Of a stretch of 64,000 bases of DNA, positions 705-50,040 are shown piece after piece. Origin of the DNA: Allobosea psychrotolerans (lineage in GTDB: Bacteria > Pseudomonadota > Alphaproteobacteria > Rhizobiales > Beijerinckiaceae); assembly GCF_002917105.1 (NCBI RefSeq), contig NZ_PQFZ01000003.1:406520-470519 (forward strand), written 5' to 3'. The notes below the pieces were generated by a model, which made no database searches, was not told the DNA's origin, and saw only the letters and a program-made list of their open reading frames with translations. The stretch's first letter is position 1, and each line of letters starts with the position of its first letter. Made by a program: the position numbers and the translations under genes.

Positions 705-3671
705 CTATTCCGCCGCCTGCACCTGCTGGGCTTTGACGCCCTTCTTGATCGGCCGCCGCGCCAGCACCTCCTTGAGGAAGCGCGCGGTGTGGCCCTTGCC
801 GATGCGCACCACATCCTCCGGCGTGCCCTGGGCCACGACCTCGCCGCCGCCGTCGCCGCCTTCGGGGCCCATGTCGATGATCCAGTCGGCGGTCTTGATG
901 ACTTCGAGGTTATGCTCGATCACCACCACGGAATTGCCCTGCTCGACCAGCTCGTGCAGCACCTCCATCAGCTTGGCGACATCGTGGAAATGCAGGCCGG
1001 TGGTCGGTTCGTCCAGGATGTAGAGGGTGCGGCCGGTGGCGCGCTTGGAGAGCTCCTTCGAGAGTTTGACGCGCTGGGCCTCGCCGCCTGAGAGCGTCGT
1101 CGCCTGCTGGCCGACCTTGACGTAGTCGAGCCCGACGCGGTGCAGGGTCTCCATCTTCTCGCGGATCGAGGGCACGGCCTTGAACAGGATTTTTGCCTCC
1201 TCGACCGACATGTCGAGCACATCGGCGATCGACTTGTCGCGGTATTTCACCTCGAGCGTCTCGCGGTCGTAGCGCTTGCCCTTGCAGACGTCGCAGGTGA
1301 CGTAGACATCGGGCAGGAAGTGCATCTCGATCTTGATGACGCCGTCGCCTTGGCAGGCCTCGCAGCGGCCGCCTTTCACGTTGAATGAGAAGCGGCCTGG
1401 CTGATAGCCGCGCGCCTTGGCCTCGGGCAGGCCGGCGAACCATTCGCGGATCGGCGTGAAGGCGCCGGTATAGGTCGCCGGGTTGGAGCGCGGCGTGCGG
1501 CCGATCGGCGACTGGTCGATGTCGATGACCTTGTCGAGCAGCTCCATGCCCTCGATGCGCTCATGCGGGGCAGGGTGCTCGATTGAGCCGTTGAGCTTGC
1601 GCGCCACCGCCTTGTAGAGCGTGTCGATGACGAGCGTCGACTTGCCGCCGCCCGAGACGCCCGTGATGCAGGTGAACAGCCCGAGCGGGATCTCGACCGT
1701 GACATCCTTGAGGTTGTTGCCGCGCGCGCCGACGATCTTGAGCGAACGCCCCTTGGTCGCCTTGCGGCGCTTGTCGGGCACCGCGACCGAAAGCTCGCCG
1801 GTGAGATAGCGGCCGGTGAGCGAATCCGGGTTGTCGAGAATGTCCTGCGGCGTGCCCTTGGCGACGATCTCGCCGCCATGGATGCCGGCGCCGGGGCCGA
1901 CATCGACGACGTAGTCGGCGGTCAGGATCGCGTCCTCGTCATGCTCGACGACGATGACGGTGTTGCCGAGGTCACGCAGGCGACGCAGCGTGCCGAGCAG
2001 GCGCTCATTGTCGCGCTGATGCAGGCCGATCGAGGGCTCGTCCAGCACATAGAGCACGCCGGTGAGGCCGGAACCGATCTGGCTGGCGAGGCGGATGCGC
2101 TGGCTCTCGCCGCCCGAAAGCGTGCCGGAGCCGCGGGCGAGCGTCAGATATTCCAGCCCGACATCGAGCAGAAAGGTCAGGCGGTCGCGGATTTCCTTGA
2201 GGATGCGCGGGGCGATCTCGTTCTGCTTCTTCGACAGGCGCGAGGGCAGGGCGCTGACCCACTCCAGCGCGTCCTTGACCGAAAGCCGCGAGATCTCGCC
2301 GATATGGCGCATGTCGATCTTCACCGCCAGTGCCTCGGGCTTGAGGCGGAAGCCGTCGCAGGCCTTGCACGGCGTCTCGGACATGAAGCGGCCGATCTCC
2401 TCGCGGGCCCAGTCCGACTCCGTCTCCTTCCAGCGCCGCTCCATATTGGTGATCACGCCCTCGAAGGGCTTCTTCACCTCGTACGCCCGCAGGCCGTCAT
2501 TATAGGCAAAGCGCACCGGCTCGGTGCCGGTGCCGAACAGGATCGACGTCTTCGCCTTCTCCGGCAACTCGCTCCAGGGCTTCGTCATCGAGAAGCCGAA
2601 ATGCTTGGCGAGCGCGTCGAGCGTCTGGCCGTAATAGGGCGAGGTCGACTTGGCCCAGGGCGCGATCGCGCCTTTCTTCAGGGAGAGCGCATGATCGGGC
2701 ACGATCATCTCGGGATCGATGCGCATCTCATGGCCGAGCCCGTCGCAGGCCGGGCAGGCGCCGAAGGGGTTGTTGAAGGAGAACAGGCGCGGCTCGATCT
2801 CGGGGATGGTGAAGCCGGAGACCGGGCAGGCGAATTTCGAGGAGAAGGTGACGCGCCTGGCCTCGCCATTCTCGTCCTTCTCATCGGCATATTCGAAGAC
2901 GGCGATGCCGTCGGCGAGCTCCAGCGCCTGCTCCAGCGAGTCGGCGAGGCGGGCGCCGAGATCGGGCCTGATGACGATGCGATCGACCACGACGTCGATG
3001 TCGTGCTTGAACTTCTTGTCGAGCGCCGGCGCGTCGGGGATCTCGAAGAACTCGCCATTGACCTTGACGCGCTGGAAGCCGCGCTTCAGCCACTCGGCCA
3101 TTTCCTTGCGGTACTCGCCCTTGCGGCCGCGCACCACGGGCGCGAGCAGATAACCGCGCGTCTTCTCCGGCAATTCGGTCAGCCGGTCGACCATCTGCTG
3201 CACGGTCTGGCTCTCGATCGGCAGGCCGGTCGCTGGCGAATAGGGAATGCCGGCCCGCGCCCAGAGCAGGCGCATATAATCGTGGATCTCGGTGACGGTG
3301 CCGACCGTCGAGCGCGGGTTCTTCGAGGTCGTCTTCTGCTCGATCGAGATCGCTGGCGAGAGCCCGTCGATCTGGTCGACATCGGGCTTCTGCATCATCT
3401 CGAGGAACTGACGGGCATAGGCCGAGAGGCTCTCGACATAGCGGCGCTGGCCCTCGGCATAGATCGTGTCGAAGGCGAGCGACGACTTGCCCGAGCCCGA
3501 CAGCCCGGTGAAGACGACGAGCTTGTCGCGCGGAATCGCGAGGTCGACATTCTTGAGATTGTGCTCGCGCGCGCCGCGCACGGAAATCACGCGCGAATCG
3601 ACCTTGCGGTTGGCGTCGAACATATCTTCGAGCGCGGCGGCCTGATCGGCGAGGGAAGACTTGCGGGCCAT
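705..3671 (-). CDS. uvrA: Excinuclease ABC subunit A
   Basis: UvrA, the damage-recognition ATPase of nucleotide excision repair, which loads UvrB at bulky DNA lesions. The 988-residue product has two ABC modules: Walker [10 protein letters not shown] near residue 56 and GVSGGGKST near 672, with signatures LSGGESQR and LSGGEAQR and Walker [10 protein letters not shown] and LDEPTTGLH. The C-terminal zinc finger is intact (CEAC...CDVC). In the first zinc module the usual CPxC is CPVS, so one ligand is missing; I recall this in other rhizobial UvrA proteins but cannot check it. The start at 3671 ([10 protein letters not shown]) fits family length; an upstream in-frame start at 3722 adds 17 unlikely residues. 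A LexA box lies about 100 bases upstream. Confidence 0.98.
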
Positions 3672-13170: not shown

Positions 13171-13644
13171 CTCGAAATCCCCAATATCTTGCCCGGCTGT
13201 CCTGGCGCGCAGGGCTGATGATTGGCGATGGCCTTAGAGCAGGATGCGGAAAAGGGGAAACCGGTTTTTTGCATCGATTTGCTGTCTTTTTGTGATGGGA
13301 GCCGGATTGGGCGCGAACGCAGCAACGCATGTCTTCGCGTCACGCAGGGCTGGAATGCCGGGGCGGCAGGATGGCCCGGGCCGGCCAGCCGATGAGGATG
13401 CAGGCGCGAGAAGGGCTGGCTGTTGCTGCGTGTTGCAAATGCAACAGTTCGCAACAATGGGTTAACGGAAGGGCAGTCCCTCCAGGGTTCGCGGCGGTTT
13501 GTGTCCGATTGTCATAAAACTCAAGTCTGGCCCGGTCATGAGCCGGACTGACCTATCGGAATTTCCGATCAGGTTCGTCCTGAAGAGCCGTGCTGTTTGC
13601 TCGTCCGAAGAGCCGCTCTCCCACTTCGATCTGGAGCCTCTGCG
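13171..13644. other. Gene-free spacer between aminotransferase and autotransporter
   Basis: 474 bases holding the divergent promoters of the two flanking genes. It includes a diverged copy of the GCAGGAT...ACCGG...GCATC hairpin (13237-13290) that occurs twice downstream of guaB. I recognise no regulator site or small gene in the rest. Confidence 0.6.
13237..13290 (-). repeat. Diverged single copy of the guaB-side hairpin module
   Basis: On the minus strand, ATCGATGCAAAAAACCGG TTTCC CCTTTTCCGCATCCTGC follows the same order as the modules at 48050-48095 and 48173-48220, with several substitutions that weaken the stem. It lies about 70 bases upstream of the aminotransferase start. Confidence 0.7.
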
Positions 13645-47307: not shown

Positions 47308-47514
47308 GTCAAGCCTTGCGCCAGAGGGAGGACGAGCCTCTGATCCCAACCAAACGGTTGTCCCCAAACCGTTACCGCCGCAAGCATTTAGCATGCCGAC
47401 GCTGGGTCAGGGGCGCAAGCAGTAAACACGGTTTATCGCGGCATGTAGCGAGGAAGTGACAGGCGTCCAGACGGGATATATCAGGCCCGCGAATCGTCTC
47501 TGGCGTGCGTCGTC

Positions 47515-47925
47515 TCAGACGACCGCGAGGACCACCCCGACCCACATCAGGAACAGGATCAGTACGCCGAGCGCGAACACGCCGGCGCGCGGCTTCATCG
47601 CGTTCGAGCCGACATGGATCAATGTGTGGACGACGCGGCTGGCGACGAAGGCCCAGGCCAGCCCCGCCATCGCATAGCCGCTCGCGCCGACCTCCATCGC
47701 CAGCATGATCAATGCGAAGAAGACGACCGGTGTCTCGAACTGGTTCGAGAAATTCGCTGCCGCCAACCGGGCGGGTTCGGGATAGCCCTCGCTGGAGACG
47801 GCGACATCGGCCAGGCGCACCTGCTTGCTCTTGAAGGCAGCCTGGCGGCGCAGGAAGACGATGACGAGCACCACGAAGATCCAAAGGATCATCGCCAAGG
47901 TGGGGTAGACCAGCTTCAACGTCAT
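47515..47925 (-). CDS. MAPEG family membrane protein
   Basis: A 136-residue, four-helix membrane protein of the MAPEG superfamily (membrane-associated proteins in eicosanoid and glutathione metabolism). The family block RLAAANFSNQFETPVVFFALIMLAMEVG and RVVHTLIHVGSNAMKPRAGVFALGVLILFLMW are clear; NQFE and RVVHTLIH are the conserved core. Bacterial members are often glutathione-dependent but their role is mostly unknown. The ATG at 47925 (MTLKLVYPTLAMILW) is preceded by GGGAGCG. Upstream lies the tandem hairpin module after guaB. Confidence 0.88.
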   Translation of the reverse strand: MTLKLVYPTLAMILWIFVVLVIVFLRRQAAFKSKQVRLADVAVSSEGYPEPARLAAANFSNQFETPVVFFALIMLAMEVGASGYAMAGLAWAFVASRVVHTLIHVGSNAMKPRAGVFALGVLILFLMWVGVVLAVV

Positions 47926-47980
47926 CGCGCGCTCCCGTTCGGCTTTCCTGAGGCTACGTACAGGCTGTGCTAGAGCCAAA

Positions 47981-48095
47981 TGATTTGAGCTGGGATCACA
48001 GAGTGATCCCAGCTCAAATCAGAATCCGTCTTTCATCTAAGAGTGGAGAGCAGGATCGATTGCGAAAAACCGGCTTCCACTTTTTCGCATCCTGC
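47981..48095. repeat. Composite hairpin module, copy 1
   Basis: Two hairpins in order. The first has arms TGATTTGAGCTGGGATCAC and its exact complement around an AGA loop (47981-48021, 19-bp stem). The second has GCAGGAT...TGCGAAAAA then TTTTTCGCATCCTGC (about 48050-48095). They are joined by GAATCCGTCTTTCATCTAAG. Confidence 0.92.
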
Positions 48096-48106
48096 AAGAG
48101 CCGGAT

Positions 48107-48220
48107 GATGTCAGATGGGATCACTTGATGATCCCATCTGACATCTGAATCCGTCTCTCATCAAAGAGTGAGAGCAGGATCTAATGCGAAAAACCGGCTT
48201 CCACTTTTTCGCATCCTGCT
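48107..48220. repeat. Composite hairpin module, copy 2
   Basis: Tandem repeat of the module at 47981 with a period of 125 bases. Its first stem is GATGTCAGATGGGATCA with its exact complement around a 5-base loop (48107-48145). The joint is GAATCCGTCTCTCATCAAAG and the second hairpin (48173-48220) is nearly identical to copy 1. It lies just beyond the guaB stop and can serve as its terminator. Confidence 0.92.
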
Positions 48221-48227
48221 CTCGCGC

Positions 48228-50040
<1,813 letters not shown>

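Follow-up and report, generated by a model that had tools for sequence, protein, structure and literature searches.

The Rhizobium-specific intergenic mosaic elements (RIMEs), said to go back to a 1995 description by Osteras et al., are reportedly units of about 108 bp that each contain two large palindromes. For the REPINs, the relevant passages of PMC3116915 give conserved ends, inverted doublets and tandem clusters, with compensatory changes being common in the hairpins, and what defines REP sequences, in the parts of PMC6006769 and PMC3733652 devoted to them, is a GTAG/GTGG or CGTC tetranucleotide situated at the hairpin foot. The Bru-RS elements of Brucella, as they figure in passages of PMC2267715 and PMC2266754, are palindromic, about 103–118 nt long and count 222 members. 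Similarly, Br-REP1 and Br-REP2 of Bradyrhizobium are described, in sections of PMC5082802, as palindromic intergenic repeats that occur in 3'-UTRs and are unevenly distributed between related genomes. Alphaproteobacteria such as the Rhizobiales are credited, in a passage of PMC6006769, with none or few Y1 transposase genes; since palindromic repeats are nevertheless described from several Hyphomicrobiales, the route of their spread is in question.

Two tandem modules situated behind guaB, in the stretch of 64,000 nucleotides analysed here (the window), are copies of one two-hairpin element of about 125 bp, very probably a non-autonomous, palindromic mobile DNA repeat similar to RIMEs and REPINs. 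In layout and behaviour the element was found to be closest to these two systems, and it is placed among the RIME-like repeats as a new member from Bosea. With RIMEs it shares its intergenic position (53 of 59 copies), its dispersal, its two palindromes and a host among the Hyphomicrobiales; it differs in that the host is Bosea and that hairpin 1 has a longer upper stem than in two Rhizobium/Pararhizobium homologues. With REPINs it shares an inverted pair of hairpins, conserved ends, a freer, covarying part, tandem clusters and non-autonomous spread, but it lacks the tag (the foot reads CN-AGAGC), has longer hairpins and altered junction bases, and is present in two copy-rich relatives without Y1_Tnp. 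The REP tag and an accompanying RAYT were looked for and not found with the element, which is therefore said to work like a REPIN and is not filed as one. The Bru-RS, compared by description only, resemble it in size, in being palindromic and in their Hyphomicrobiales host, whereas the Br-REP1/Br-REP2 consensus printed in the sections of PMC5082802 mentioned above is, by eye, unlike the Bosea element. No paper on the element was recognised by title in the open-licence literature searched for Bosea.

The modules behind guaB and the copies in the genome

The features of the locus are collected in Table 1. The first-pass annotation had reported two modules with a 125-base period following guaB, and both points were borne out: identity was 79% over 78 nt at a spacing of 125 and 96% over 50 nt at a spacing of 124, and the modules lie 3' of guaB, which is on the minus strand, with module 2 ending 5 nt past the stop codon. 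The six pairs named in the first stems all have the bases claimed. The statement that every difference keeps pairing was correct for the inner stems, which are perfect (47981–47999/48003–48021, 19 bp, and 48107–48123/48129–48145, 17 bp), but not for the foot of hairpin 1, where AAAT in module 1 replaces GGAT in module 2 and leaves two A.C mismatches in module 1. A diverged single copy of the second hairpin had also been placed at 13237–13290; a match does lie there, but it is weak and decayed. Module 1 lacks the final TCT, at the very point where module 2 starts. The predicted fold of module 2 reached −69.2 kcal/mol on the plus strand and −76.0 kcal/mol on the minus strand; the z-score was close to −9.9 for each strand, and none of 200 shuffles was equally stable. 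The tandem pair was found at guaB in the host genome (G000) and in the relative G007, whereas G044 has one module, with the stem type of module 1, and G031 has one module and a hairpin-2 remnant, hairpin 1 of the module 1 type being absent.

Table 1. Element copies and neighbouring genes, in window coordinates
Feature	Position	Strand	Basis
Module 1: element copy, right end cut short where module 2 begins	47972..48095	+	inverted-repeat/alignment
Module 1 hairpin 1; inner stem 47981-48021 (inverted repeat I3)	47972..48033	+	
Module 1 hairpin 2, right foot incomplete	48047..48095	+	
Module 2: full-length copy, AGAGC...GCTCT ends	48097..48222	+	model R1 match 48095-48224, 148.9 bits
Module 2 hairpin 1: conserved foot AGAGCCGGAT/ATCCGTCTCT, TGA bulge, covarying upper stem 48107-48145	48097..48158	+	
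Module 2 joining sequence linking the hairpins	48159..48170	+	alignment A1
Module 2 hairpin 2, sequence-conserved; family core AAAAGTGnnnnnCGGTTTT on minus strand	48171..48222	+	
guaB (IMP dehydrogenase), 3' end facing module 2	48228..49727	-	ORF; Pfam PF00478 + CBS
MAPEG-family gene, far side of the repeats	47515..47925	-	Pfam PF01124
Decayed partial copy (hairpin 2 part)	13234..13305	-	R1, 28.9 bits

Full-length copies in the host genome numbered 61, of which 59 were recovered in loci L002–L090 by plain alignment and two are those of the window. A search with a 281-nt stretch gave at least 63 matches (40 of 183 candidates scored). The covariance model R1 was built from alignment A1, with 31 rows comprising both modules and 29 copies from other sites, and the covariance search and copy count that had been suggested for this genome yielded at least 149 matches from the 150 candidates scored out of 2765 found at first look. 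At least 59 of the matches, counted by eye, reached 90 bits, and many copies match on both strands. The order within the unit is AGAGCCGGAT-[stem]-TGA-ATCCGTCTCT-joint-AGAGCAGGAT-[bulge]-GCGAAAAA...TTTTTCGC-ATCCTGCTCT, with ends of the form (C)N-AGAGC...GCTCT-N(G), and the bulge on the inner arm of each hairpin makes the unit roughly mirror-symmetric. By the ORF heuristic, 53 of 59 copies are intergenic, four overlap a predicted ORF and two lie at edges; the intergenic ones are distributed between co-directional (27), divergent (13) and convergent (13) genes, at a median distance of 14.5 nt from 3' ends and 62 nt from starts. The core AAAAGTGnnnnnCGGTTTT of hairpin 2 occurs 102 times in the genome, its backward control not once. 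Among 21 partial copies, many possess the joint and hairpin 2 without hairpin 1, and few show the reverse (L058, L062, L067). The half-elements with hairpin 2, mostly with the joint (L061, L065, L066, L068–L070, L075, L076, L079, L080, L083), include several that start near GGCTCTCATC, which would fit a loss of hairpin 1 or a failure to copy it. Another repeat family that is abundant, of the GAGCGTTTTC...GAAAACGC type, abuts two element copies (left flanks of L021 and L009) and accounts for many matches of relatives to positions 1350–1424 and 3300–3374 of the joined-flank query.

Empty sites, junctions and shared slots

The description of the modules as a possible structured mobile repeat was upheld by dispersed copies, empty sites in relatives and insertion polymorphism, and on these genome comparisons the element is mobile within Bosea. 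For 26 copies the two flanks were joined and compared with the genomes of three close relatives (G007, G031 and G044), and 20 of the 26 sites were found to be empty in at least one of these. Flank length was identical between empty and occupied alleles at 16 sites, indicating that insertion adds a core of about 125 bp without target duplication, and a direct-repeat test for target-site duplication at the insertion sites was likewise negative. The sites L004, L005, L011 and L029 are empty with a length difference of one or two bases and stand outside the 16; L035, with a left flank poorly matched in all three relatives, was excluded from the empty-site and slot-sharing counts; and no clean empty allele was obtained for L034, L009 (repeat in the flank), L013, L018 or L042. 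At the L034 site of G007 (L225, G007:C22:143900-145150) the element is seemingly absent and about 850 nt are found in addition close to the slot.

The base at −2 was C in 54 of 59 copies and that at +2 was G in 46 of 59, with −1 being variable. When empty and occupied alleles were compared, positions −1, +1 and +2 differed at 8, 8 and 6 of the 16 sites, respectively, amounting to 22 changes in 48, while the positions farther than 4 from the junction gave 43 in 512 (p 2e-10, for three positions picked after inspection). Insertion takes place at CN/NG-like sites (the stroke marking the junction) and goes with altered junction bases. In the commonest occupied form CTAG is restored at each end, so that a resident copy may offer a new target, which would fit the tandem pair behind guaB.

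Several slots were found to be used in more than one way. At L006, G007 carries a different two-hairpin element of 102 bp with AGAGC...GCTCT ends, G031 and G044 being empty. At L008, a copy in the opposite orientation is present in G007 and G044 and the site is empty in G031; the G000 copy ranks fourth and third in similarity to the two inverted copies, and inversion in place is therefore possible. At L020, G044 has an inverted copy and G031 is empty; here the G000 copy comes only 18th of 80 in similarity, and an independent insertion is the likelier event. The site L015 holds a tandem pair in G031 and G044, one copy in G000 and none in G007. A modest excess of inverted repeats was detected around the sites at 15 nt (equalled by 68 of 2000 shuffles) and at 20 nt (equalled by 20). 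A general preference of insertion for inverted repeats was rejected, with no excess at 25, 30 and 40 nt (357, 658 and 186 of 2000 shuffles, respectively).

Covariation in hairpin 1 and paired changes in place

In the alignment of 31 copies, nine pairs showed two-sided change, in 22 cells, a value reached by none of 500 shuffles, and further pair types were as frequent in only two of 500. In a set of 80 copies (61 from the host genome and 19 from relatives), 1347 cells belong to the upper stem of hairpin 1, and of these 103 were two-sided Watson-Crick alternatives and 120 were mismatched or wobble, whereas the foot of hairpin 1 and the whole of hairpin 2 had 11 against 157 (p 3e-19); the copies share descent, so that two-sided counts overstate independent events and the p values ignore kinship. 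The covariation is real, but in hairpin 1 it is a feature of the upper stem alone, being strongest in the lower part of that stem, and it is nearly absent from hairpin 2, with its wide loop. Stem changes without compensation, which had been named as the observation to look for against the idea, are thus present in 120 of 1347 upper-stem cells, and covariation is a strong tendency and not a rule.

Changes in place were followed in 19 comparisons at shared sites. The inverted or foreign elements L216, L235, L236, L222 and L234 were excluded together with L226, L231 was retained in the pair count though it is maybe a different insertion, and the same G000 copy was used twice for L003, L011, L013, L014, module 1 and module 2. 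The upper stem displayed 11 double and 18 single changes, as against 1 and 26 elsewhere (p 0.002). The G000 copy at the site was the nearest of 80 in just 10 of 15 same-orientation comparisons, which suggests that some of these changes may stem from re-insertion; the pool of 80 contains few copies from G007. Within those 10 comparisons (eight different G000 copies), three doubles were found, at L004, L005 and L010, where about 0.33 were expected (p 0.005). L004 and its G007 counterpart are identical except at two of 125 bases, which pair with each other, and a higher G.T mismatch is common to both, which would make conversion by another copy unlikely there. The changes at L005 (C-G to G-C) and L010 (T-A to G-C) are without a G.U intermediate. 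These three paired changes in place are fairly secure, and the in-place doubles point to a coordinated change of the arms, by palindrome correction or by selection on a DNA fold. Hairpin 2 changed in place at 15 of 684 positions and the flanks at 103 of 2059 (p 0.001, the flank count omitting the four guaB comparisons and L231); its slower change may reflect a host-level function.

The first-pass annotation had taken the covariation to imply selection on folded RNA or cruciform DNA and had suggested a small RNA, and of that proposal the covariation of the upper stem was supported and the RNA part was not. A small RNA or 3'-UTR element, in which selection on the RNA fold for stability, processing or regulation causes the covariation, is very unlikely, even though both strands fold strongly, copies lie nearer to the 3' ends of genes than to their starts and hairpin 2 is slow to change in place, and even though repeats in 3'-UTRs and transcription of REP elements are mentioned for Bradyrhizobium and Sinorhizobium in passages of PMC5082802 and PMC2873474, respectively. 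Selection on a plus-strand RNA predicts more G.T than A.C among one-sided changes, and that excess is absent, with 64 G.T against 92 A.C over all pairs (p 0.03). The A.C excess would be G.U on the minus strand, a weak hint of RNA selection there that vanishes when the single pair holding 18 A.C cells is left out (60 against 74, p 0.26). Additionally, orientation relative to co-directional genes is unbiased (10 against 17, p 0.25), divergent and convergent gaps are equally occupied, the foot and hairpin 2 are little compensated, the majority of the sites searched lack a copy in at least one close relative, and a simple scan of 47500–48700 gave no promoter-like site and no terminator-like site (stem followed by a T run). 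No Rfam family matched at gathering scores in the whole window; the permissive hits at 47900–48300, none of which reached the gathering score, were to miRNA hairpins of eukaryotes and to a Staphylococcus sRNA. The lack of a G.T excess, together with the unbiased gene orientation, means that selection at the RNA level is not indicated.

Covariation in a mobile palindrome does not on its own speak for a functional RNA, and the paired mutations seem to reflect the palindromic nature of the DNA itself. A putative trans-acting recombinase would depend on sequence in recognising hairpin 2 and the conserved feet, whereas in hairpin 1 it would mainly read the fold, formed in single-stranded or cruciform DNA; the upper stem may accordingly drift while its arms match. 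Some paired changes would, moreover, arise when one arm is copied onto the other by template switching or palindrome correction, as suggested by doubles that also occur in place at the same site, some of them without a G.U intermediate. It is a serious possibility, to which somewhat less than even credence is given, that the covariation is altogether neutral, with template switching in a tight, perfect palindrome producing it and no recombinase being required. The in-place doubles in otherwise near-identical copies, as at L004, fit such an origin, as do the concentration of covariation low in the upper stem and its near absence from the wide-loop hairpin 2; that hairpin 1 stayed palindromic over the distance between Bosea and Rhizobium is left unexplained by it unless the same process operates there. 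Neutral covariation is compatible with the mobile repeat preferred here, and both can hold.

Spread of the element and candidates for its mobilisation

Relatives of the MAPEG-family gene are encoded at 31 named loci, most of them from Bosea, with Bosea sp. OK403 closest at 94%, and on this basis the window is assigned to Bosea. The element was searched for in 31 genomes (the host, 18 congeners and 12 from other families of the order) with a cut-off of E<=1e-6, and matches were obtained in 18, namely 17 of 19 Bosea genomes and 1 of 12 outside the genus. The number of matches per Bosea genome, in which one copy can match on both strands, ranged from none (G008 and G010) to at least 111 (G007), with 62 in G006 and 45 in G013; about 99 separate full-length rows were counted by eye among the matches listed for G007. 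The core AAAAGTGnnnnnCGGTTTT was present in 23 of 289 genomes of the class, with 8–16 occurrences in eight of those other than the host; since the backward control occurs at most once in any genome, single matches may be due to chance. Some of the core matches in other families lie within two-hairpin elements with CTAGAGC...GCTCTAG ends (L260, L266). Among plasmids, 20 of 72,556 records matched module 2 by BLAST, 17 of them from Rhizobium, the best covering 72% of the query at 75.5% identity and none covering 80%, with identities of 73.4 to 76.3% in the 15 rows listed. Four Rhizobium/Pararhizobium plasmid homologues, presumably RIMEs and with R. leguminosarum among their hosts, could be aligned with that of Bosea across the two hairpins, and the conserved TGAATCC is present in them. 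Three of the four aligned are 112–114 bp long, as against about 125 bp in Bosea, and the upper stem of hairpin 1 has 11–12 pairs in the folds of two of these homologues (L279 and L280), as against 17 in Bosea. No match to the element was found in phage records. In G124, from another alphaproteobacterial family, the core forms short tandem arrays (contigs C5, C16, C17, C19 and C27) with a spacing of 58–65 nt, and once of 124 nt.

The Y1_Tnp family includes the RAYTs, and a REPIN proper would be moved by such a Y1/HUH transposase (TnpA-REP) through single-strand transposition of the folded hairpins. The host genome has one Y1_Tnp gene (238 aa; L091 1414–2130, G000:C5:403422-403745), and among 20 relatives Y1_Tnp (PF01797) was detected only in G007, G031 and G044 (loci L253–L258). 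The possession of this gene, the two inverted hairpins with a bulge on each inner arm, the modest excess of inverted repeats at 15–20 nt and the missing target duplication, which to our knowledge is not expected in REPIN/REP insertion, all agree with a RAYT. It is nonetheless unlikely that a RAYT is at work, considering that 17 of 20 relatives, including the copy-rich G006 and G013, have no Y1_Tnp at E<=0.001, that the Y1 gene is bounded by a palindrome of its own (GGTGACAGTGCACT/AGTGCACTGTCACC), and that no element copy was found at the Y1 loci, the palindrome at L091 and L256 being different by eye. Moreover, neither GTAG/GTGG nor CGTC is present at the foot of the element, and the junction bases are altered, which as far as we know is not expected of IS200/IS605-type insertion. 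The Y1_Tnp gene was rejected as the mobiliser on its absence from G006 and G013 and on Y1 loci devoid of the element. That the element is a MITE of a conventional DDE insertion sequence, the full copy of which was lost or missed, appears highly improbable; its short inverted ends, the absence of any coding capacity seen and copy numbers that are very uneven between genomes would suit a MITE, but target duplication is missing both from the direct-repeat test and from the 16 equal-length empty sites. In addition, ten ORFs lying between neighbouring copies in eight loci gave no transposase by Pfam, one of them belonging to no family at all.

The non-autonomous mobile repeat could, on a broader proposal that is put forward tentatively and held to be rather doubtful, belong to a widespread alphaproteobacterial superfamily of two-hairpin elements with AGAGC...GCTCT ends and the AAAAGTGnnnnnCGGTTTT core, moved by an undescribed recombinase that would insert folded DNA, along with one left and two right bases, into CTAG-like slots. 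Such slots would be open to different elements and orientations, and copying from one arm to the other would maintain the palindrome of hairpin 1, so that paired mutations would appear with no selection on RNA. The family offers sharp material in its young insertions with empty alleles, its junction footprint, the slots shared by different elements and the paired mutations in place. At a further site, L023, the copy (1508–1632 in reverse-strand coordinates) lies in the loop of a GC-rich stem-loop with a T tail and may split a terminator; the stem-loop is unsplit in G007, G031 and G044.
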